This document shows, one piece after another, positions 11,866 to 35,977 of a DNA stretch of 38,284 nt. Positions within the stretch are counted from its first letter, which is position 1; every line of letters begins with the position of its first letter. The DNA lies in the NCBI GenBank assembly GCA_016930275.1, contig JAFGHA010000039.1:1-38284 (forward strand), read 5' to 3'. The stretch comes from Chitinispirillaceae bacterium (GTDB taxonomy: Bacteria; Fibrobacterota; Chitinivibrionia; Chitinivibrionales; Chitinispirillaceae). Both the position numbers and the translations under genes were made by a program. The notes below the pieces were generated by a model. It was given only the letters and a program-made list of their open reading frames with translations. It did no database searches and was not told where the DNA came from.

Positions 11866-13275
11866 TTATGATGCAAGCTCATATCGCACGCCCGCCTCCA
11901 CGATCTCCACCACATGCCCCATACCCGTAAGCAACCCCCGCAGATTCTCCTGCGCCTTCTGCTCGCCATGTACCAGAAAGATCTTTTTCAGATTCGTTGT
12001 ATCGAGCCTTCGTACATAATCGGTAATCTCGTTGTAGTCGGCATGACCGCTGAACGAATTGAGTACTGCAACTTCCGCCTTGAGCGGAAAGTGCCGCCCG
12101 AAGATCGGGACGGTTTCCCACTTCTCCAGAATTTTACGGCCGAGTGTATGTTCCGCCATATACCCGACTATCAGGATCGTGTTGCGCTCGTCGCCGATGC
12201 AGTGCATCAGATGGTGCAGGATACGCCCCGCTTCGCACATCCCCGACGAGGCGATGATGATCGCCGGATCGGTGATCATGTTGAGCGCCTGACTCTGCTG
12301 CTTTGAAACACAGTAGTGCAGATCGTTGAATCCGAACGGATTCTCGTGGTGCTCCAGAAATGCTTCGCGCGTTTCATCGTCGTAGCACTCCTCGTGGAGT
12401 TTGAAAATGGTTGTGGCATTGACCGCCATGGGGCTGTCGACATAGATCGGCAGCGAAGGAATACGCCCCTGGTCATGAAGCAGATGGATGCAGAACACCA
12501 GTTCCTGAGTCCGCTCGATCGCAAAAGCCGGGATGATGATTTTACCGCCCTGCTCCACAGTACGATTGATGATATCGGCAAGCGTGTCCATGGTCGTATC
12601 GAGCGGTGCATGCAACCGGTTGCCGTAGGTACTCTCGAGCACCAGGTAATCCACCGGCGGCAGCATCTCCGGGTCACGGATAATCGGCAGATCGTTACGC
12701 CCCATATCTCCGGAAAAACCGATCTGGAGATGCCGGCCGTCGCGGTTGATATCCACCAGCGCCATTGATGAGCCGAGAATATGCCCCGCATCGAAGAGCA
12801 TCGCATTCACGCCTTTGGCGAGAAAAAACGGACGGTGGTAGGCAACGGTCATGAAATGATCAAGACAGGTGCGCACCTCTTTTTCGTCGTACAACGGTTC
12901 ATACGTTACCAGACTGTTGTTGTGCCGTTTCTGCTTATGCAGATAATCACAGTCTCTGCTCTGCAGATGTGCACTGTCGAGCAGTACCAGATTCGCCAGA
13001 TCGCGGGTGGCATGGGTGGAGTAGATTGAATTCCGGTATCCCTGCGACACGAGGCGGGGCAGAAGCCCGCAGTGATCATAGTGCGCATGCGTCAATACCA
13101 CCGCATCGAGCAGTTTTGGATCAAACGGGAAACTGCTGTTCTTCCGGTACGACTCGTCACGTTTCCCCTGAAACGCCCCGCAGTCGACCATTACTGTGGT
13201 ACGGTCAATTTCGAGAAGATGTTTCGATCCGGTGACTTCCTGTGCCGCGCCGGCGGAGAGCAGTGTGCAGTTCAT
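11866..13275 (-). CDS. Metallo-beta-lactamase / beta-CASP RNA-processing hydrolase
   Basis: A 469-residue enzyme of the bacterial CPSF/YsH1-like group (MBL fold with RNA specificity domain). Zinc ligands are in HAHYDHCG (H63, H65, D67, H68), the later GHILGS His, and SGD. The beta-CASP insertion is marked by [23 protein letters not shown] and [18 protein letters not shown], and the C-terminal MBL motif by [12 protein letters not shown]. Family members act as endo/exoribonucleases, but the substrate in bacteria is largely unknown. AAGGAT lies six bases before the ATG. It is followed by ppnP on the same strand; linking RNA turnover with nucleoside phosphorolysis is an attractive but unproven inference. 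Confidence 0.9.
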
Positions 13276-16253: not shown

Positions 16254-16289
16254 AATAAAAATGCAGGACCGCACTGCCGCAGCCCTGCA
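16254..16289 (-). terminator. Intrinsic terminator downstream of ppdK
   Basis: On the minus strand TGCAGG (plus 16284-16289) pairs with CCTGCA (plus 16262-16267), followed by TTTTTATT. The 16-base loop can fold further (CTGC/GCAG). It lies between the ppdK stop and the PHP gene start. Confidence 0.55.
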
Positions 16290-16319
16290 CCGTCTGTTCA
16301 ATTCACCAAAAGAGAAAAC

Positions 16320-19300
16320 CTATCTTCTGTTTTTTTTTACAGCTTTCTTTGCAGCCTTTTTGACACTCTTTTTAGCTACCTTTTTTATCGCTTTTTTTGC
16401 ACTCTTTTTTACAACAGCTTTTTTTGCTGCCGTTTTTTTAGCGAAACTCTTTTTCACGACCGTTTTCCTGGCTGTCGTCTTTTGTACAACCGTTTTTTTG
16501 GCCGTCACTTTTTTGGCAACCTTCTTTTTAGCCGCCGCTTTTTTGACTGTTTTTTTCGGAGCGACTTTTTTTAAAGCCTTCTTTTTGGCGATGGTCTTTT
16601 TCACCGGGGCCTTTTTAACCGACTTTTTCACCACTGGTTTTACCGCCGCCATTTTCTCCTCAACGACAGCCTGAGCGGCAGCCAGACGGGCGATCGGTAC
16701 CCGGAACGGTGAACATGACACGTAGTTCATACCGATACTGTGGCAGAACTTGACGGAATCGGCATCACCCCCATGCTCCCCACAGATGCCGACCTTGAGG
16801 TTCGGTCGTGTCGAACGGCCGCGGGTGATACCTGTTTTAACCAATTCGCCTACACCGTCCTTGTCAATAGTCTGGAAAGGATCGGCCGGGAGAATTTTCC
16901 CATTGATATAATCCGGGAGAAATCCACCGATGTCGTCACGGGAGAAGCCGAAACTCATCTGAGTGAGATCATTGGTGCCGAATGAAAAGAATTCGGCGAC
17001 ATCGGCCATCTTATCGGCCGTCAGCGCAGCACGCGGAATCTCTATCATCGTTCCGAACATGAACGGTATCTTCTTCAGCCCGAGATCCGCACATACTTCT
17101 TTGTAAACAGCGTCGACGAGCTTCTTCTGGTTCGCCAGTTCATTGGAGGTGCAGGTTACCGGAATCATTATTTCGGGATACGCTTTCTTCCCCTCCTTGA
17201 TGAGCTCACCGGCAGCGGTAAGAATCGCGCGGATCTGCATTTCTGACACTTCGGGATAGGTGACACCGAGACGCACGCCGCGATGCCCGAGCATCGGGTT
17301 GCTCTCCCTGAGACTCTCACCCCGCTTTTTGACGTCATCGACACTGATGCCGAGTTCCTGCGCCATCGCGGCGACCTTGTCTTCACTGTGTGGAACGAAC
17401 TCGTGGAGCGGCGGATCGAGCAGACGAATGGTGATCGGCAAGCCGTGGAGCACTTCCATGGTCGCCTTCATGTCTTTTTTGACAAATGCGGAAAGTTCCG
17501 CGAGTGCCGCCTTCCGCTCCTCAAGCGAGCCGCTCATGATCATCTTGCGCAACAGAAAGAGCGGCTTGTCGCTTCCTTCGCCATAAAACATATGCTCGGT
17601 ACGGAAAAGGCCGATTCCCTCGGCGCCGAATTGTACCGCTTTACGGGTATCGTTCGGTGTGTCGGCATTGGTCCTGATCTTGAGCACCCGGACCTTGTCG
17701 CAGAGTTTCATCAGATCGCCGTACGCCAGATTGTGCTCGAGATCCACATCCACCAGCTTGAGGTGCCCCTGGTAGATGAGCCCTTTGGTACCGTTGAGGG
17801 AAATCCATTCTCCTTCCCTGACCGTCACGCCGGATTTCGTCAAGAAACTTTTAGCGCCCACTTCGATATCGGAACACCCTACCACGCAGCACTTTCCCCA
17901 GCCGCGGGCAACCAGAGCCGCATGCGACGTCATGCCGCCTTTCGAGGTGAGAATCGCCTGGGCCTTGTGCATCCCGTCGACATCCTCGGGCGAAGTTTCT
18001 TCACGGACAAGAATAACTTTCTCTCCGCGGGCAGCCCACTCAACAGCAGCTTCGGAGGTGAATACCGCCCGACCGCTGGCTCCTCCCGGCCCTGCGGGCA
18101 ACCCCTTTGCAATCGGCGACATCGTTTTTTCGGCGACCGGATCGATCATCGGCAGGAGCAGTTCAACAAGCTGGTTCGGCCCGACACGCATCAACGCGGT
18201 TTCGGCATCGATCATTCGTGCTTTCTGCATTTCGGTAGCCATACGCACTGCGGCAACACCATTGCGTTTACCGACACGGCACTGCAGCATAAAGAGTATG
18301 CCGTTTTCGATTGTGAATTCAATATCCTGCATATCGTGATAGTGTTTCTCGAGCGCCAGCTGAATCTTGAAAAGCTGCCCGTAACATTCCGGAAATGACT
18401 GTTCAAGTGTGGGAAGATGCCGGCTCTGGTCGTTTTTCGAATATTCATTGATAGGTGACGGGGTACGGATACCGGCAACGACATCCTCTCCCTGCGCATT
18501 GATAAGATATTCGCCATAGAACTGATTCTCACCGGTACCGGGATTACGGGTAAACGCCACACCGGTGGCACTACCTTCACCCATATTACCGAAAACCATG
18601 GTCTGCACATTTACCGCTGTTCCCCAGTCATCGGGAATTCGTTCGATACGGCGGTAATCAATGGCACGCTTTCCGTTCCAGCTCATGAACACGGCACCGA
18701 TACCACCCCAGAGCTGTTCCATCGGTGTTTCAGGAAACGGTTTTCCCAGTACATCGCGAACGATCCGTTTGAATTCACCGACCAGCATTTTCAGATCATC
18801 GGCGGTAAGGTCGGTATCGATTGTATACCCCTTGGCTTTCTTAACCTCATTGAGTCGCTCGTCCAGAATTTTCCGGATACCTTTGCCGTTCTTCGGCTCG
18901 ATACCCGCGGCCTTTTCCATCACCACGTCGGCATACATCATCACCAGACGACGATAGGCATCATACGCGAAACGAGGATTTCCGGTCTTCTCGATAAGTC
19001 CCTGGATGGTATCGTCATTGAGACCGATGTTGAGCACGGTGTCCATCATACCGGGCATCGATCGACGGGCTCCCGAACGAACCGACAGCAGCAGAGGATT
19101 CTTCGTATCACCGAATTTTTTCCCCATGAGTTTTTCAACTTTCGCGAGTGCCGCATTTACCTGACCGGTCAGTTCCTTCGGATAGGATTTTTTATAATCG
19201 TAGTAATAGGTACACACTTCTGTCGTGATAGTAAATCCCGGAGGTACGGGTAGTTTGAGCTGCGCATGTCCGGCCATTTCGGCAAGGTTCGCACCTTTAC

Positions 19301-19373
19301 CGCCCAAAAGATTCTTCATCGATTCGTTTCCGTCAGCCTTGCCGCCTCCAAAAAAATAGACGTATTTCGCCAT
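16320..19373 (-). CDS. ppdK: Pyruvate phosphate dikinase with a histone H1-like C-terminal tail
   Basis: Residues 1-907 are a complete PPDK, which interconverts pyruvate, ATP and phosphate with PEP, AMP and pyrophosphate. The nucleotide-binding domain opens with MAKYVYFFGGGKADGNE; the phosphohistidine is H484 in TSKGGMTSHAALVARGWG; the PEP/pyruvate domain has GLFRTEHMF, FGTNDLTQMSFGFSRDD and catalytic C864 in GICGEHGGD, ending in the usual CSPFRVPIARLAAAQA. Family proteins normally stop there. Here the frame continues for 110 residues (908-1017; 16323-16652) made of VKKSVKKAxxKK-type repeats: 45 Lys, 3 Arg, many Ala/Val/Thr, no acidic residue. This resembles histone H1, Hc1 or AlgP tails. The start is fixed by family similarity and GGAGG/AGGGG upstream. 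Many A runs in the tail would favour slippage or assembly error. Confidence 0.96.
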   Translation of the reverse strand: MAKYVYFFGGGKADGNESMKNLLGGKGANLAEMAGHAQLKLPVPPGFTITTEVCTYYYDYKKSYPKELTGQVNAALAKVEKLMGKKFGDTKNPLLLSVRSGARRSMPGMMDTVLNIGLNDDTIQGLIEKTGNPRFAYDAYRRLVMMYADVVMEKAAGIEPKNGKGIRKILDERLNEVKKAKGYTIDTDLTADDLKMLVGEFKRIVRDVLGKPFPETPMEQLWGGIGAVFMSWNGKRAIDYRRIERIPDDWGTAVNVQTMVFGNMGEGSATGVAFTRNPGTGENQFYGEYLINAQGEDVVAGIRTPSPINEYSKNDQSRHLPTLEQSFPECYGQLFKIQLALEKHYHDMQDIEFTIENGILFMLQCRVGKRNGVAAVRMATEMQKARMIDAETALMRVGPNQLVELLLPMIDPVAEKTMSPIAKGLPAGPGGASGRAVFTSEAAVEWAARGEKVILVREETSPEDVDGMHKAQAILTSKGGMTSHAALVARGWGKCCVVGCSDIEVGAKSFLTKSGVTVREGEWISLNGTKGLIYQGHLKLVDVDLEHNLAYGDLMKLCDKVRVLKIRTNADTPNDTRKAVQFGAEGIGLFRTEHMFYGEGSDKPLFLLRKMIMSGSLEERKAALAELSAFVKKDMKATMEVLHGLPITIRLLDPPLHEFVPHSEDKVAAMAQELGISVDDVKKRGESLRESNPMLGHRGVRLGVTYPEVSEMQIRAILTAAGELIKEGKKAYPEIMIPVTCTSNELANQKKLVDAVYKEVCADLGLKKIPFMFGTMIEIPRAALTADKMADVAEFFSFGTNDLTQMSFGFSRDDIGGFLPDYINGKILPADPFQTIDKDGVGELVKTGITRGRSTRPNLKVGICGEHGGDADSVKFCHSIGMNYVSCSPFRVPIARLAAAQAVVEEKMAAVKPVVKKSVKKAPVKKTIAKKKALKKVAPKKTVKKAAAKKKVAKKVTAKKTVVQKTTARKTVVKKSFAKKTAAKKAVVKKSAKKAIKKVAKKSVKKAAKKAVKKNRR

Positions 19374-19744
19374 ATTCCCCTGACCTCCGTATGATTTGTT
19401 TATAATAGGATGGACTGTTACTGCCTGAACCGGGTGATTACCTGTCTTCGCGGTCGTTTCATGATGAACAACCGCTCGATTGAGGAAACTGAAAAACAGT
19501 AAAATATACATCCTACGAAGAAGGAGTTACAAGCCCTGCTGCAGCTGGAACCGGCAATAAAAAACATTTTATCGCCGTTAATCAACCGGCATTTATACAC
19601 AAGGCTGCCCCCGGATCGACCGTAACGTGACGACGGTCTTCGCTGCAATCAGTTCATGACTGTACCCCTATCAGGCCGCAATGTTTTCCCGGCCTGTTTT
19701 CAATTGAACCGGCCGGTGCCATGATGGTAGATTGTAGTACTATT
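19374..19744. other. 371-base divergent intergenic region with leader hairpins
   Basis: Separates ppdK (minus) from the GH57-like operon (plus). Near ppdK, the minus strand holds TATTAT/TATAAA at about plus 19400-19405 with only a weak -35. No coding frame is convincing. The plus-strand end holds a terminator-like hairpin and a perfect palindrome, listed separately. Confidence 0.6.
19672..19717 (+). promoter_or_regulatory. Attenuator-like leader ahead of the GH57/STAS/SLT operon
   Basis: CAGGCC (19672-19677) pairs with GGCCTG (19691-19696) and is followed by TTTT, like a terminator, yet no plus-strand gene ends upstream. Ten bases on lies the perfect palindrome ACCGGCCGGT (19708-19717), whose GGCC could compete for the same arm. 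Together they look like a small attenuation switch. No ligand or leader peptide was recognised. Confidence 0.35.
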
Positions 19745-26314: not shown

Positions 26315-27295
26315 TTACCGTTCCTTCCACCCGAAACTCACCACCTCGGTAATTGCCGAAACGCCCAGCCTGCACATGAACACTCGGTCAAGACCGACCG
26401 CCACCCCGGAACAGGGAGGGAGTCCGCCCCCCTCGTTCAACGCTGCCAGAAAGCATTCATCCAGCGGCACCTCCGGCTTTCCGCATCGGTTCCTGAGCAT
26501 ATTTTCCAGATTCATCCTTCGGCGGTTTTCGGTGCTGTCGGCCAATTCTTCAAAACCGTTCGCGAGTTCCATTCCGCCACCATACACTTCGAATCTCCTG
26601 GCGACACGGGTATCATCCGGGTCAACCATCGAGAGTACCGCCTGTTCCCGGGGATAATGGTGAAGTACCGTCAATTCATTTTTCGGCAATGCCGGTTCCA
26701 CGACGGCAGCCATGACAAACTGCAACCCTTCGGTAACGGTGCCGAACCGTATCTGCTGACCGGATTCCCTGCCGATAAAGGATTCCATATCGCCGATACC
26801 GACCTCAAGCGGGTCGAGACCGGTTGACTGGAGAAACAGATCACGATAGGTCAGTACCCGCACCGTTTCGATTTCAGAAAGATCCCGAAGCAATTCGACC
26901 GTTTCATCGATCAGACGGAACATATCAAACCCGCGACGATACCATTCAAGCATGGTGAACTCGGGATTATGCAGCCTGCCAAGTTCACCGTTTCTGAATA
27001 CTTTTCCTATCTGAAAAATATCAGGAAAGCCACCGACAAGCAGACGCTTCATAAACAGTTCCGGTGAAGTCTGCAGATAGCACTTCTCCCCTGTACACCT
27101 ATCCGTACTGCCCGAAGACAGGTAGCTGCTGCTGAAAAGATCGATGTGGCAATCGGTGGACGCCGTACATCCGAGAATAGGCGTTTCTACTTCCAGCACG
27201 TCGCGACTGGAGAAAAACGCCCGAATCATCGACATCATTTCCGCACGTGCACGTGCGGTTTCAACCGTAAATTGCCGTGCGGATTTTTCTTTCAT
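26315..27295 (-). CDS. epmA: EF-P lysine lysyltransferase EpmA (GenX/PoxA)
   Basis: A 326-residue paralogue of the lysyl-tRNA synthetase catalytic core without the anticodon-binding domain. It activates (R)-beta-lysine and attaches it to a Lys of EF-P. Class II motifs are clear: YLQTSPELFMKRLLVGGF, motif 2 at FRNGELGRLHNPEFTMLEWYR, and motif 3 at SGVAVGLDRVFM. GFEELAD before motif 3 also fits. GAGG lies upstream of the ATG. The gene is downstream of efp on the same strand, with a hairpin between them, and epmB is divergent next door, so the whole modification pathway is in one place. The length equals that of E. coli EpmA (about 325). Confidence 0.94.
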   Translation of the reverse strand: MKEKSARQFTVETARARAEMMSMIRAFFSSRDVLEVETPILGCTASTDCHIDLFSSSYLSSGSTDRCTGEKCYLQTSPELFMKRLLVGGFPDIFQIGKVFRNGELGRLHNPEFTMLEWYRRGFDMFRLIDETVELLRDLSEIETVRVLTYRDLFLQSTGLDPLEVGIGDMESFIGRESGQQIRFGTVTEGLQFVMAAVVEPALPKNELTVLHHYPREQAVLSMVDPDDTRVARRFEVYGGGMELANGFEELADSTENRRRMNLENMLRNRCGKPEVPLDECFLAALNEGGGLPPCSGVAVGLDRVFMCRLGVSAITEVVSFGWKER

Positions 27296-31621: not shown

Positions 31622-33406
31622 ATGCGGGGAAGAATAGTACATAAAGCTGCATGTATACTGTTTGCAACCGGGTTTATACTTACCATCTGGGCCGTAGCAC
31701 CAAAACACGGCTGGTTAAGCACAAAAAATAACTACGTTTTAAATGAAAAAGGTAATATCGTCCAACTCAAGGGAATGAGCTTTTATTGGAGTACACCCGG
31801 CTGGATCGGGATCGGCTACTATAATGCCGGTACAGTAAACATGTTGGCCGATGACTGGAAATGTACGGTTGTCCGTGCGGCATACGATAGAAATAACGGT
31901 AACGATAACGGATGGAACGAGGTCAAAACAGTTATTGATGCCGCTATCGCCAAAGGTATCTATGTCATTCTCGACTGGCATTCTCATACCGCCGAACAAC
32001 AGGCAAGTACCGCTATTTCGTTTTTCACCAGCAAGGCTCAGGAGTATAAAAACACTCCCAACGTAATCTTTGAGGTTTATAATGAGCCTAAAGTCGCCGG
32101 AGGCAGTGACGAAAAAGACGGGAGTGTCGAAGCTGGGAAAAAAACCTGGGCCGTCATCAAGCCCTACCTCAACGACGTCACCAAAGCGATCCGGAATACC
32201 GGCTCGAAAAATCTCATTATTCTCGGAACCCCCTATTTCTGTCAGCATATCGGGGTCGCTGCCGCCGATCCCGTTGAAAAAAGTCCCGGTGTACCGTATG
32301 AAAACGTCGCCTACGCGTTTCATTTTTACGCCGCCAGTCACGGCCCGGAAGCGATGTATGTCGAACGGGACGGCGGCGGAATGGAAGCGACGTATCTTGC
32401 CGCAGGAGTAAATTCCATTCCCGTTTTCGTCACTGAATGGGGTACAACACACAGCGACGGCAGTCAGGGAGTCGACGAAGCGAATACCAACTGGTGGTTC
32501 GATAATTATATCAACAAGTACCATATCAGCCATTGCAACTGGTCGGTATCGAGCGGTGAAGGATCAAGCTGTTTCTCCGGAGGGACCTCTCCGAGCCAGT
32601 CAGGTCAGATCGCTAAAAGGCTCATCGGCAGCGGTGAAGACGAATGGGTACCGGTATGGGAAACCGGTCTCGAAGGCCCGGCGAAAGACAGTGTCTTCAC
32701 ATTCCCGAAAGAATTTCACCAGGCCTCCGCATTCAATAATTATTTCGGCACCCATGCGGAAAGCACCACGGTTGCTTACTCCTACCGTGACAAGGTCGAC
32801 CGGAGAATCGCCGGTACGCTCGGCTACACGGTTCTGAAAGTCACCCCCAGCACCGAGGATAACTGGGTTTCTTACAATATTAAATCCAATTCAGCTACAA
32901 AATATCTGCTTATGCGATACCACTCCAACGATGGAACCGGTACCGTGGAAGTACTGGTCGATGACAGCAAAGCCGGACAGGTGACCCTGCCCGAGAAAGC
33001 GACCTGGGACTACGCGGTAATCCCGGTGGATATCGCCACCGGTACGCATAATCTGAAATTCAATTTTGTCAACACTAGCGGCGACAGTTACCTGATCGAA
33101 TGGTTTGAACTGACCAACGAGCAGAACCCGCCGCAAGTCAGTGCCCTGAACTCAATTCAACGGGGTATCTGTACCGTTTCACCGAAACTCTTCCCCATCA
33201 GCAGAGGATTCGAAATCCGTCTGCCGTCATCGCACCGTTATACCGGGTACTCGCTGGTTGGAGCGGACGGTAGAACAGTGAAACATGCACCATTGCGGCA
33301 GGGTACCATGCAGATAACCGTCAGCGGGATCGCCAACGGCATGTGGTTCCTGAAACTTGAAGGAGAGTCTCCGATGGTGCTCCGGACGATGGTCAACGGA
33401 AAATAA
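31622..33406 (+). CDS. Secreted GH5 endoglucanase with CBM and C-terminal domain
   Basis: A 594-residue secreted cellulase. A signal peptide covers about residues 1-25. The GH5 barrel (about 30-330) resembles subfamily 2: GNIVQLKGMSFYWS, VVRAAYDRNN, VILDWHSH, then VIFEVYNEP with the acid/base E155, AYAFHFYAASH, and PVFVTEWG with the nucleophile E272. Residues about 370-505 look like a CBM6/35-type beta-sandwich, ending WDYAVIPVDIATGTHNLKFNF and IEWFELT. The last 70 residues (YSLVGADGRTVKH, then IANGMWFLKLEG) resemble a sorting-type domain. It hydrolyses internal beta-1,4 bonds in cellulose or mixed-link glucans. GH9 follows after 97 bases on the same strand, probably in one operon. Confidence 0.92.
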   Translation: MRGRIVHKAACILFATGFILTIWAVAPKHGWLSTKNNYVLNEKGNIVQLKGMSFYWSTPGWIGIGYYNAGTVNMLADDWKCTVVRAAYDRNNGNDNGWNEVKTVIDAAIAKGIYVILDWHSHTAEQQASTAISFFTSKAQEYKNTPNVIFEVYNEPKVAGGSDEKDGSVEAGKKTWAVIKPYLNDVTKAIRNTGSKNLIILGTPYFCQHIGVAAADPVEKSPGVPYENVAYAFHFYAASHGPEAMYVERDGGGMEATYLAAGVNSIPVFVTEWGTTHSDGSQGVDEANTNWWFDNYINKYHISHCNWSVSSGEGSSCFSGGTSPSQSGQIAKRLIGSGEDEWVPVWETGLEGPAKDSVFTFPKEFHQASAFNNYFGTHAESTTVAYSYRDKVDRRIAGTLGYTVLKVTPSTEDNWVSYNIKSNSATKYLLMRYHSNDGTGTVEVLVDDSKAGQVTLPEKATWDYAVIPVDIATGTHNLKFNFVNTSGDSYLIEWFELTNEQNPPQVSALNSIQRGICTVSPKLFPISRGFEIRLPSSHRYTGYSLVGADGRTVKHAPLRQGTMQITVSGIANGMWFLKLEGESPMVLRTMVNGK

Positions 33407-33502: not shown

Positions 33503-35977
33503 ATGAAGCGCATTTTATTACCTGTACTGGTGTGCTGCACAGCCCTGCAACTTACGGCGCAGGATCTCAACACACTGCATAACATGCTGATCAAGTTCTA
33601 CCAGTACCAGCGTGCGGGACTGAAAAGCGGTAGTGCCAACAATGCCAATTCCGGATTTACCGAAGCCTCACACAAAGGCGATAATTATAACGGCAAGCCG
33701 CTCGACGGCGGCTGGTACGATGCCGGTGACTACATCAAATTCGGGATGAATCTCGGCTACTCACTGTACTGCCTGCTTAAAGGATATGACGTGTTTCCGA
33801 GTGCCTATACGACCAGCTCCGGTTCGGTACCGGACGTCCTCGTCCAGGCGAAATTCGCCACCGATTATCTTTGTAAAGCGGTTATCGACAACAACACGGT
33901 CGTTCTCGACGTCGGAGTAGCAGAAGATGAACATGGTACCTGGGGGGTAAAATACGCTGAAGGAAGAAGCGGCAATCAGATCAGGCTCTGTGACGGAGGG
34001 GATATTCCCGCGACCTATGCCGCCTGTCTTGCACTGATGTCGGTATTGTACCGTAAACATGATTCCGACTATGCCGACCAATGTCTTGCCAAAGCGAAGA
34101 CAGCCTTTGCGTTTGCAAAAGCAAAGTTCAACTCGAACAAAAACTACTGTACCCCGCAGTTGAAAGCCGGCGCCGCGCTGTACGACTATCCAACCGTTGA
34201 AGGCCAGAAAAACCAGCAGATCAACGACCGTATGGTGGCGGCCGGTGTCGAACTGTATCGCGCGACACTCGGTACCACAGGCGCCGATCCGATTTATAAA
34301 ACCTGGGCAACTAAAAGTATTATCAATTTCTACAACTGTATCGGATATTCATATATCGGCCCGCTGGCTGCATACGAAGTCTGGCATCAGGGGCTATTGA
34401 CCAGTGCCGGTTCATTGAATCAGAACCTATCTTTTATCGAAGGAAAAATCAAAACCTCCGGAACATTCGCGAATGTCTACCAGAACAGTGGCTGGGGAAC
34501 CGCACGAGATGTGGGGTCCGCCGCTTTAGAATATGCGCTCGGGTATGTTACTTCAGGTACTGAATCGACCCGAGAGAAGTACCTCACCCGTGTAAATGAT
34601 CACGTCAACTGGTTGACCGGCAAGAGTGGCCGCTCCTATATCTGCGGCGTCGGATCAGGCCCCACTCGTATCCACTACCGCACCACCAATTACGGTGCAG
34701 TTCCGGGAGCGGTCGTCAGCGGCCCCGACGGCGACGGCAACTGGAGCGACGATGGTAGTGCCAATTACTGTGAAGTGGCGATCGACTACAATGCGGGTGT
34801 CGTCGGTGCGGTGGCGTTCCTCAAGGCGACAAGCGACAACTCCGCACTCAGAGTGACCAAGGTCTTCGAAGCCGACCAGACTGTCGGTGTCGATATGACC
34901 ACCAAAAAAGTCACCTTCGGCGCGACCCTTTCAAAATCGGTTCCCTGGACTATTGTAATTACCGGTGCTTTCGGTGTAAAAGAATTTTCAAATACCGGAA
35001 CGAACATCAATGCCGTCTGGGACGGCAGTGCGGATGAAGGATATTTCCTTGCGGGAGAGGTGGTAAAAGCGCGCCTGGAGGTCGACGGCGACATCTCCGC
35101 TCTTGATCTGCAGAAAGCCAGACCGGTATCCGTTGAAATCATCAAGACCGTCAAGTCTCCTTTGAAAACAAACGACAAACTCGTTGACGATTTCGAGGAT
35201 GGCGACTCGATAAACAAATACAGTGGCAGGTGGACCGCATTCGGCACCGGAATCGGGCTTACCGGAACCTCATTCATTTTTTCCGAACTGGAAAGTTCAC
35301 CCTCGGTGCAACTCAAAGCGAACGTCCCGACACCAGCCCCGGATACCTACTCAGGCCTGCGAACAACATTCAGTGCAAGCGGTGCGGCCGGATCAGTCGG
35401 CCCCATCAAATCGATCGTATTCGATATGAAAGGTGCCACCGATGCGAATGTCTGTGTCGAGCTTGAGCAATCGTCCGTCACCGACGGAGCGTATCATCAG
35501 GTAACGTTTCCCATCACCAAATACACCAACAGTTACCGTATCCCGATCGAAAACTTCGCCCAGCCGGACTGGAAAACCAGTGATGTCGCGCTGGACCTCA
35601 ACAATATCGTCGCCCTGCGTTTTTCGGTCTATGACTCCATCGGCCGTGTGGCGATCGATATCGACAACATTTATATCGAAGACCTTGAAGTCAGCGTCAA
35701 CGCGCACTACATCACCCGTAAAAGTCAGGCATTCAATACGCCGGTGTACGCAAAAGGTTCATTGTATTATGCAATTCCGCAAAGTGCCGTCGGCACGGTC
35801 AACCTTTCGATTTTTGATCTTACCGGAAGAAACGTATTCGGGAAGCAATTCAATGGTCAGCAGAACCGGACGGTCTCGGTTGATCTCAACCGGCTGTCGG
35901 CGGGAATGTACACAGCGGTTTTCTCTGACGGCAAATCGACAATAGGAGAACGTCTGAAATTCATCATGACGAAATAA
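33503..35977 (+). CDS. Secreted GH9 endoglucanase, multidomain
   Basis: An 824-residue secreted cellulase. After a signal peptide (about 1-19), the GH9 catalytic module (21-445) shows KPLDGGWYDAGDYIKFG with D73/D76 (water-activating Asp), the substrate-site segment RIHYR (H391) followed by PGAVVSGPDGDGNWSDD, and the catalytic acid E424 in NYCEVAIDYNAGVVGA. It is of the type without an N-terminal Ig domain. Next come a FlgD-Ig-like module (about 465-535, with NAVWDGSADEGYFLAGE), a CBM11/CIA30-like module (about 558-730, DDFEDGDSINKYSGRW to IDIDNIYIEDL) and a C-terminal sorting-type domain (about 750-824, LSIFDLTGRNVFG, LSAGMYTAVFSDG). GGAG lies ten bases before the ATG. A strong terminator follows. 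Confidence 0.95.
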   Translation: MKRILLPVLVCCTALQLTAQDLNTLHNMLIKFYQYQRAGLKSGSANNANSGFTEASHKGDNYNGKPLDGGWYDAGDYIKFGMNLGYSLYCLLKGYDVFPSAYTTSSGSVPDVLVQAKFATDYLCKAVIDNNTVVLDVGVAEDEHGTWGVKYAEGRSGNQIRLCDGGDIPATYAACLALMSVLYRKHDSDYADQCLAKAKTAFAFAKAKFNSNKNYCTPQLKAGAALYDYPTVEGQKNQQINDRMVAAGVELYRATLGTTGADPIYKTWATKSIINFYNCIGYSYIGPLAAYEVWHQGLLTSAGSLNQNLSFIEGKIKTSGTFANVYQNSGWGTARDVGSAALEYALGYVTSGTESTREKYLTRVNDHVNWLTGKSGRSYICGVGSGPTRIHYRTTNYGAVPGAVVSGPDGDGNWSDDGSANYCEVAIDYNAGVVGAVAFLKATSDNSALRVTKVFEADQTVGVDMTTKKVTFGATLSKSVPWTIVITGAFGVKEFSNTGTNINAVWDGSADEGYFLAGEVVKARLEVDGDISALDLQKARPVSVEIIKTVKSPLKTNDKLVDDFEDGDSINKYSGRWTAFGTGIGLTGTSFIFSELESSPSVQLKANVPTPAPDTYSGLRTTFSASGAAGSVGPIKSIVFDMKGATDANVCVELEQSSVTDGAYHQVTFPITKYTNSYRIPIENFAQPDWKTSDVALDLNNIVALRFSVYDSIGRVAIDIDNIYIEDLEVSVNAHYITRKSQAFNTPVYAKGSLYYAIPQSAVGTVNLSIFDLTGRNVFGKQFNGQQNRTVSVDLNRLSAGMYTAVFSDGKSTIGERLKFIMTK

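Follow-up and report, generated by a model that had tools for sequence, protein, structure and literature searches.

Bacterial C-terminal tails with a composition like that of histone H1 are summarized in the literature as acting on DNA, as in mycobacterial MDP1 (PMC5974015) and in AlgP of Pseudomonas aeruginosa (PMC9239181). In MDP1, a protein of the HU type, the disordered, Lys/Ala-rich C-terminal region (about 30-33% Lys and 35-42% Ala) is described as needed for DNA compaction, and AlgP likewise has a long, disordered, Lys/Ala-rich C-terminal tail. C-terminal lysine repeats are also reported on an enzyme, actinobacterial topoisomerase I (TopA), the substrate of which is DNA itself (PMC7398561). 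An enzyme of phosphoenolpyruvate (PEP) and pyruvate metabolism, PykA of Bacillus subtilis, has been placed at a nucleic-acid machine through its interaction with DnaE on primed DNA; in that case it is the catalytic and PEPut domains that act, and the abstract describes no polycation tail (PMC10143966). Here we describe a locus of a Chitinispirillaceae bacterium (phylum Fibrobacterota) in which the metabolic enzyme pyruvate phosphate dikinase (PPDK) runs in frame into a histone H1-like tail. The analyzed stretch of DNA, hereafter the window, is 38,284 nucleotides long and covers positions 1 to 38,284 of contig JAFGHA010000039.1 (assembly GCA_016930275.1). The Lys/Ala-rich C-terminal region, predicted to be disordered, is what the window protein shares with AlgP and MDP1. 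Unlike AlgP, it has a metabolic enzyme as its body and little Pro in its tail, and a polyphosphate kinase (PPK) was not found in its genome. Compared with MDP1, the tail contains more Lys (41%) and less Ala (20%) and is attached to an enzyme; the contrast with TopA is that the substrates of PPDK are small molecules.

The fused PPDK open reading frame (ORF; 16320-19511, minus strand, as are all features of this gene) encodes 1063 amino acids with no internal stop. Its catalytic core of 907 residues (16653..19373, residues 47-953 of the long ORF) scored 1239.8 bits against TIGR01828 (cut-off 843.45), a whole-model equivalog match extending over model positions 2-864 of 865. The domains follow the order expected for PPDK, namely PF01326, PF00391 and PF02896 (nucleotide-binding, mobile phosphohistidine and PEP-binding), and the fold predicted with AlphaFold2 (AF2) matches solved PPDKs with E down to 1.6e-89. 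By sequence and fold, the window gene is thus a full-length PPDK. With the solved enzymes (1kbl/1dik and relatives, 2x0s) it has in common the whole catalytic core, the domain order and the conserved GGMTSHAALVARGWGK stretch, which presumably contains the catalytic His. The alignments stop where the tail begins: out of 13 matched PDB sequences, the 11 full-length PPDKs align only to residue 904-913 of the 1017-residue query, and the tail starts at residue 908. The first-pass annotation had read a 907-residue PPDK continuing in frame into the tail and had placed the end of an ordinary PPDK at the start of the tail; the TIGR01828 match and translation agree with the former, and the PDB alignments with the latter.

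The tail itself (16323..16652) comprises 110 residues, among them K45, A22, V18, T8, S4, P3 and R3, with no Asp or Glu and a net charge of +48. Given the composition of the core, the probability of at least 45 Lys in the tail is 2.7e-22 and that of no acidic residue is 3.8e-7. Spacings of 4 and 5 residues between lysines are overrepresented (z = 9.2 and 10.6), and the starts of KK runs lie 4 or 5 residues apart in 18 of 19 intervals. The lysine and arginine counts, the lack of acidic residues and the regular KK repeats noted on first inspection were all recovered. AlgP-type KPAA tandem repeats were not found among the 110 residues, of which 3 are Pro. In the AF2 model (33 sequences) the core is mostly folded (mean predicted local distance difference test score, pLDDT, of 77.4 over all residues), no secondary structure follows residue 911 of 1017, where the final helix stops, and block-mean pLDDT falls to 27-32 past residue 920; the tail is thus predicted to be disordered. 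Histone H1-like HC2 (PF07382) scored 32.9 bits in the protein scan and 46.7 bits on the same stretch in the whole-genome search, respectively below and above its cut-off of 40. Either way we regard this as a compositional match and do not assign the tailed PPDK to HC2. The stop codon TAG (16320..16322) is followed, 28 bases on, by a terminator-like hairpin found by consensus scan (16260..16291; 14 pairs, 7 of them G-C) and a T-rich stretch. Stop and hairpin together make the tail look like a true gene end, an argument from the position of the hairpin and not from its count, as the region holds 4 such sites versus 5.5 expected in shuffles.

Similar tails recur among relatives of the window PPDK, as the first-pass annotation had proposed to check. 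A first sample of the best 80 loci was collected with six query patterns that avoid the lysine repeats, one of them reaching into the first tail residue, and was then ranked against the entire query; tails of at least 20 residues were present in 8 of the 79 readable C-termini (L006, L007, L008, L010, L012, L030, L063 and L069), L035 being the one locus with an unreadable C-terminus. Among 119 listed proteins nearest by PPDK residues 300-900 (window excluded), 75 had tails of at least 20 residues; Lys made up at least 25% of the tail in 72 of them, and the acidic share exceeded 6% in none of the 75. For a second PPDK type, ends of at least 20 residues were found in 31 of the best 120, one with only 18% Lys, and the acidic share reached up to 9%; both samples represent nearest relatives and not PPDKs at large. 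At the level of the phylum we analyzed 60 genomes including the window's own. PPDK was present in 42 and its C-terminus was read in 40, with tails of at least 20 residues in 20 of 22 Chitinispirillaceae (window's genome included), 5 of 14 from other families of the order and 2 of 4 from elsewhere in the phylum (27/40 in total). Two of the 24 family genomes (G010 and G014) hold N-terminal PPDK pieces only and stand outside the 22. The family is named Chitinispirillaceae here because the PPDKs of two of its genomes are identical with those of Chitinispirillum alkaliphilum and ANBcel5. These counts derive from BLAST-mapped rows, as an earlier motif anchor missed many proteins. The PPDKs of two genomes from the same genus have tails of 111 and 77 residues that differ from the window's in sequence and share its make-up. 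As a control, the ORFs of loci L006-L115 and the window were compared: 26 of the 100 PPDK-like ones had a comparable basic end, against 1 among 553 others of at least 150 residues. The initial reading had named one way in which it could fail, namely a separate lysine-rich gene joined to PPDK by an assembly error. The A-rich tract and the draft state of the genome (316 contigs, 7.4% contamination) would allow for it, but tails joined in frame to PPDK were also seen in other genomes and in assemblies that stem from several projects, which argues that the tail is not a misassembly, and we reject this explanation as hardly conceivable. On these comparisons the tailed PPDK is a real, recurrent PPDK variant.

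Chitinispirillaceae hold two PPDK types, about 60-65% identical, and both are tailed. In the sampled family rows the window's type is represented by 9 genomes and the second type by 11 in the tree, which comprises 107 rows. Left out of it were L006 and L012 (tails the same as in L087 and L096), L035 and the window-genome fragments L002 and L005, and 10 later-fetched C-termini are absent. A single clade of the 20 family rows was rejected, at a loss of 402 log-likelihood units (p-AU 1.2e-34), in a quick LG+G4 tree with groups named after the first tree was seen. A branch with support of 100 separates 50 rows including the window's type, 34 of them tail-less, and further mostly tail-less rows lie between the two family types. 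Since tails are carried by both PPDK types and these are not united in a single clade, the tail was likely gained at least twice within one host family. Mapped on the tree, the tail label changes 9 times, versus at least 20 times (mean 25.5) in 200 shuffles, and tails of at least 20 residues occur in 23 of 31 Fibrobacterota rows versus 6 of 76 other rows. The split of one family between two non-clade PPDK types also suggests horizontal replacement of the enzyme.

By analogy with bacterial histone H1-like tails, the tail may well bind PPDK to nucleic acid, either DNA or RNA, purely through its charge, a reading to which we give a probability of roughly 0.5. A disordered tail of +48 would provide an electrostatic hold on DNA or RNA. 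PPDKs are generally dimers or tetramers, and a multimeric PPDK would bind through several tails at once. Nucleic acid as the putative partner is indirectly supported, because a similar tail is found on a helix-turn-helix protein and because the known tails of such make-up act on DNA. Searching the window's genome with the tail as query returned two other lysine tails, L117 and L121. The latter is a helix-turn-helix protein of 156 residues whose H1-like tail is rich in lysine (L121:1396-1866, minus strand, contig C303 of the same genome; HTH_23 at 31.4 bits, cut-off 24.6). A helix-turn-helix protein of a relative (L131, 41.5 bits) has a similar tail, another tailed protein of a relative (L135) shows a SWIM-like finger just below cut-off, and short free-standing H1-like ORFs, seen as ORFs only, are present in family genomes. 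Separately, a long stretch of contig C40 in genome G006 (L126, L138, L142 and L144) can be read as KKPTQ/LKQPT repeats and gives HC2-like matches on either strand. Habitat is another line of evidence. The only family genomes with a tail shorter than 20 residues are G006 (L100; 2 residues, identical with the ANBcel5 PPDK) and G009 (L107; 18 residues, identical with the Chitinispirillum alkaliphilum PPDK), and both organisms are described as soda-lake haloalkaliphiles (PMC11700989, PMC4814513). Short tails in haloalkaliphiles fit a tail that works by charge. Core halophily (acidic minus basic residues) showed no correlation with tail length in 30 rows (rho 0.08, p 0.66).

What a tethered enzyme could contribute is suggested by pyrophosphate (PPi) metabolism. 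In cells that lack a soluble pyrophosphatase, PPDK is reported to be able to use the AMP and PPi released by tRNA charging (PMC7657619). The window's genome (87% complete) holds a membrane pyrophosphatase (H-PPase) and pyruvate kinase, and soluble pyrophosphatase (PF00719, PF02833) was not detected in it. A tethered PPDK would turn AMP and PPi back into ATP locally, and the benefit, speculatively, would be this local ATP recovery. Taken to its full extent, the proposal is that Chitinispirillaceae PPDKs, their tails gained independently by two types, are bound to polysomes or the nucleoid and recycle PPi and AMP from tRNA charging and polymerization to ATP on the spot, which would exert a local pull on macromolecule synthesis in cells often without soluble pyrophosphatase; we consider it unlikely in this form. 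PPDK and soluble pyrophosphatase show an inverse distribution over the phylum: of the genomes with PPDK, 8 have and 34 lack a soluble pyrophosphatase, and of those without PPDK, 16 have and 2 lack it. Kinship may explain this distribution, as 16 of the 18 PPDK-absent genomes belong to one family (f8).

Several observations weigh against nucleic-acid tethering and the role in PPi recycling attached to it. Nothing here separates DNA from RNA or another polyanion as the putative partner. The match to L121 is weak (E 0.58), and given the incompleteness and contamination of the window's genome its contig could be foreign. Tail length varies widely in the phylum (0-132 residues), which would equally be expected of an end under loose selection or drift. 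Change counts on the tree cannot distinguish gain from loss, and an independent-pairs test of Fibrobacterota versus tail was not significant with its 4 pairs, which are too few (median p 0.5). Regarding salt, the PPDKs of G006 and G009 are sister rows, so that their short tails probably reflect one event, habitat was considered for 2 of the 22 family genomes only, and organic osmolytes are predicted to be synthesized by C. alkaliphilum (PMC4814513), the internal salt level of which may therefore not be high. Finally, tail length was not associated with the presence of a soluble pyrophosphatase (p 0.74; 8 genomes have one and 32 lack it), and of the 6 genomes with the longest tails 4 have a soluble pyrophosphatase match, some by PF02833 alone. 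The PF02833 domain is not specific to pyrophosphatases, and part of the "with" group rests on it. The missing association and the matches in long-tail genomes leave the PPi-recycling step weak, and loss of soluble pyrophosphatase as a driver of tail length was rejected among PPDK-bearing genomes on the same comparison.

The main rival to nucleic-acid tethering, although we hold it to be somewhat unlikely, is loosely selected growth: an ancestral Lys-Lys stub at the C-terminus would have been extended nearly neutrally by slippage in A-rich DNA and tolerated as harmless. Many tail-less PPDKs do end in KK or KKK, one protein (P0172) has almost no tail, and the spread of lengths within a single phylum is what such growth would leave behind. 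It accounts less well for the concentration of tails in one family and on two enzyme types, and for their near absence from the other ORFs in the control. The DNA itself also argues against it. Synonymous codons in the window tail are mixed and its DNA repeats are 66-73% alike, which indicates that the tail is not fresh slippage. How fresh slippage should look is illustrated by L117 of the same genome (L117:1219-1731, plus strand, contig C229), a small protein with a KKTAT/KKAAT tail that consists of a near-perfect 15-base DNA repeat (97%) and runs off the fetched stretch. Moreover, in 29 tails with the first 10 codons left out, Arg codons AGR outnumber Glu codons GAR by 24 to 9 (p 0.0135; 28 to 15 over all codons), both being one transition from Lys; the tails are related, so this p value is optimistic.

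Other polyanions than nucleic acid could also be bound. The first-pass annotation had proposed a tether to the nucleoid, to RNA or to polyphosphate, and the first two of these fared better than the third. Anchoring of PPDK to polyphosphate granules, near a store of phosphate or PPi, has a precedent in AlgP, the H1-like KPAA tail protein that is reported to associate with such granules (PMC9239181). We nevertheless find it quite improbable, as neither PPK1 nor PPK2 was found, in a search of the 60 genomes, in any of the six with tails of at least 75 residues, the window's among them, and the window tail is poor in Pro. Non-detection in the window's genome is not proof at 87% completeness; three of the other five long-tail genomes are 95-99% complete. 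Among the 22 genomes with a PPK, the median tail length is 21.5 residues and the maximum 59, versus a median of 53 in the 18 without PPK (p 0.026 over 40 genomes and p 0.20 when restricted to the 28 with completeness of at least 90%, with no kinship correction). On this pattern, the polyphosphate tether was set aside as the leading idea for the Chitinispirillaceae lineage. Rather unlikely, in our view, is a tail that holds PPDK on anionic membrane lipids beside the membrane pyrophosphatase, or that drives condensates with mixed polyanions. The window's genome has an H-PPase, and 4 of 6 PPDK-bearing genomes without detected H-PPase have tails of at most 7 residues (p 0.049), a pattern that kinship may explain, the four being from one family (f7). 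Against it, tails of 41 and 54 residues occur in the remaining two genomes in which H-PPase was not detected, although these are incomplete (88% and 68%), and a similar tail sits on a helix-turn-helix protein.

Regarding the remaining features of the gene and the window, an in-frame upstream extension of 46 codons (19374..19511) is probably untranslated. Homologues begin at MAKYVYFF or nearby, close to the second Met (ATG 19373), and the longer start at 19511 is for this reason probably unused; a ribosome-binding-site-like GGAGG (19384..19388) lies upstream of ATG 19373. Elsewhere in the window, the plus strand encodes a GH5 cellulase with a weak CBM6 match (31622-33406) and a GH9 protein with a Por secretion tail (33503-35977), the gene content of a polysaccharide degrader. 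The minus strand encodes a short class II tRNA-synthetase-like protein of 326 residues that matches tRNA-synt_2 only (26315-27295) and is possibly EpmA-like, and a Metallo-beta-lactamase/Beta-Casp/RMMBL protein that is probably an RNA-processing nuclease (11866-13275).

A search of the literature by titles and abstract openings, with most subscription papers and all bioRxiv preprints outside its scope, returned no description of such a PPDK tail. That a core metabolic enzyme has seemingly gained a histone-like tail more than once in one lineage points to selection for where the enzyme is located over what it catalyzes. If the tail binds nucleic acid, it would connect energy metabolism based on pyrophosphate, directly and physically, with the machines from which pyrophosphate is released.
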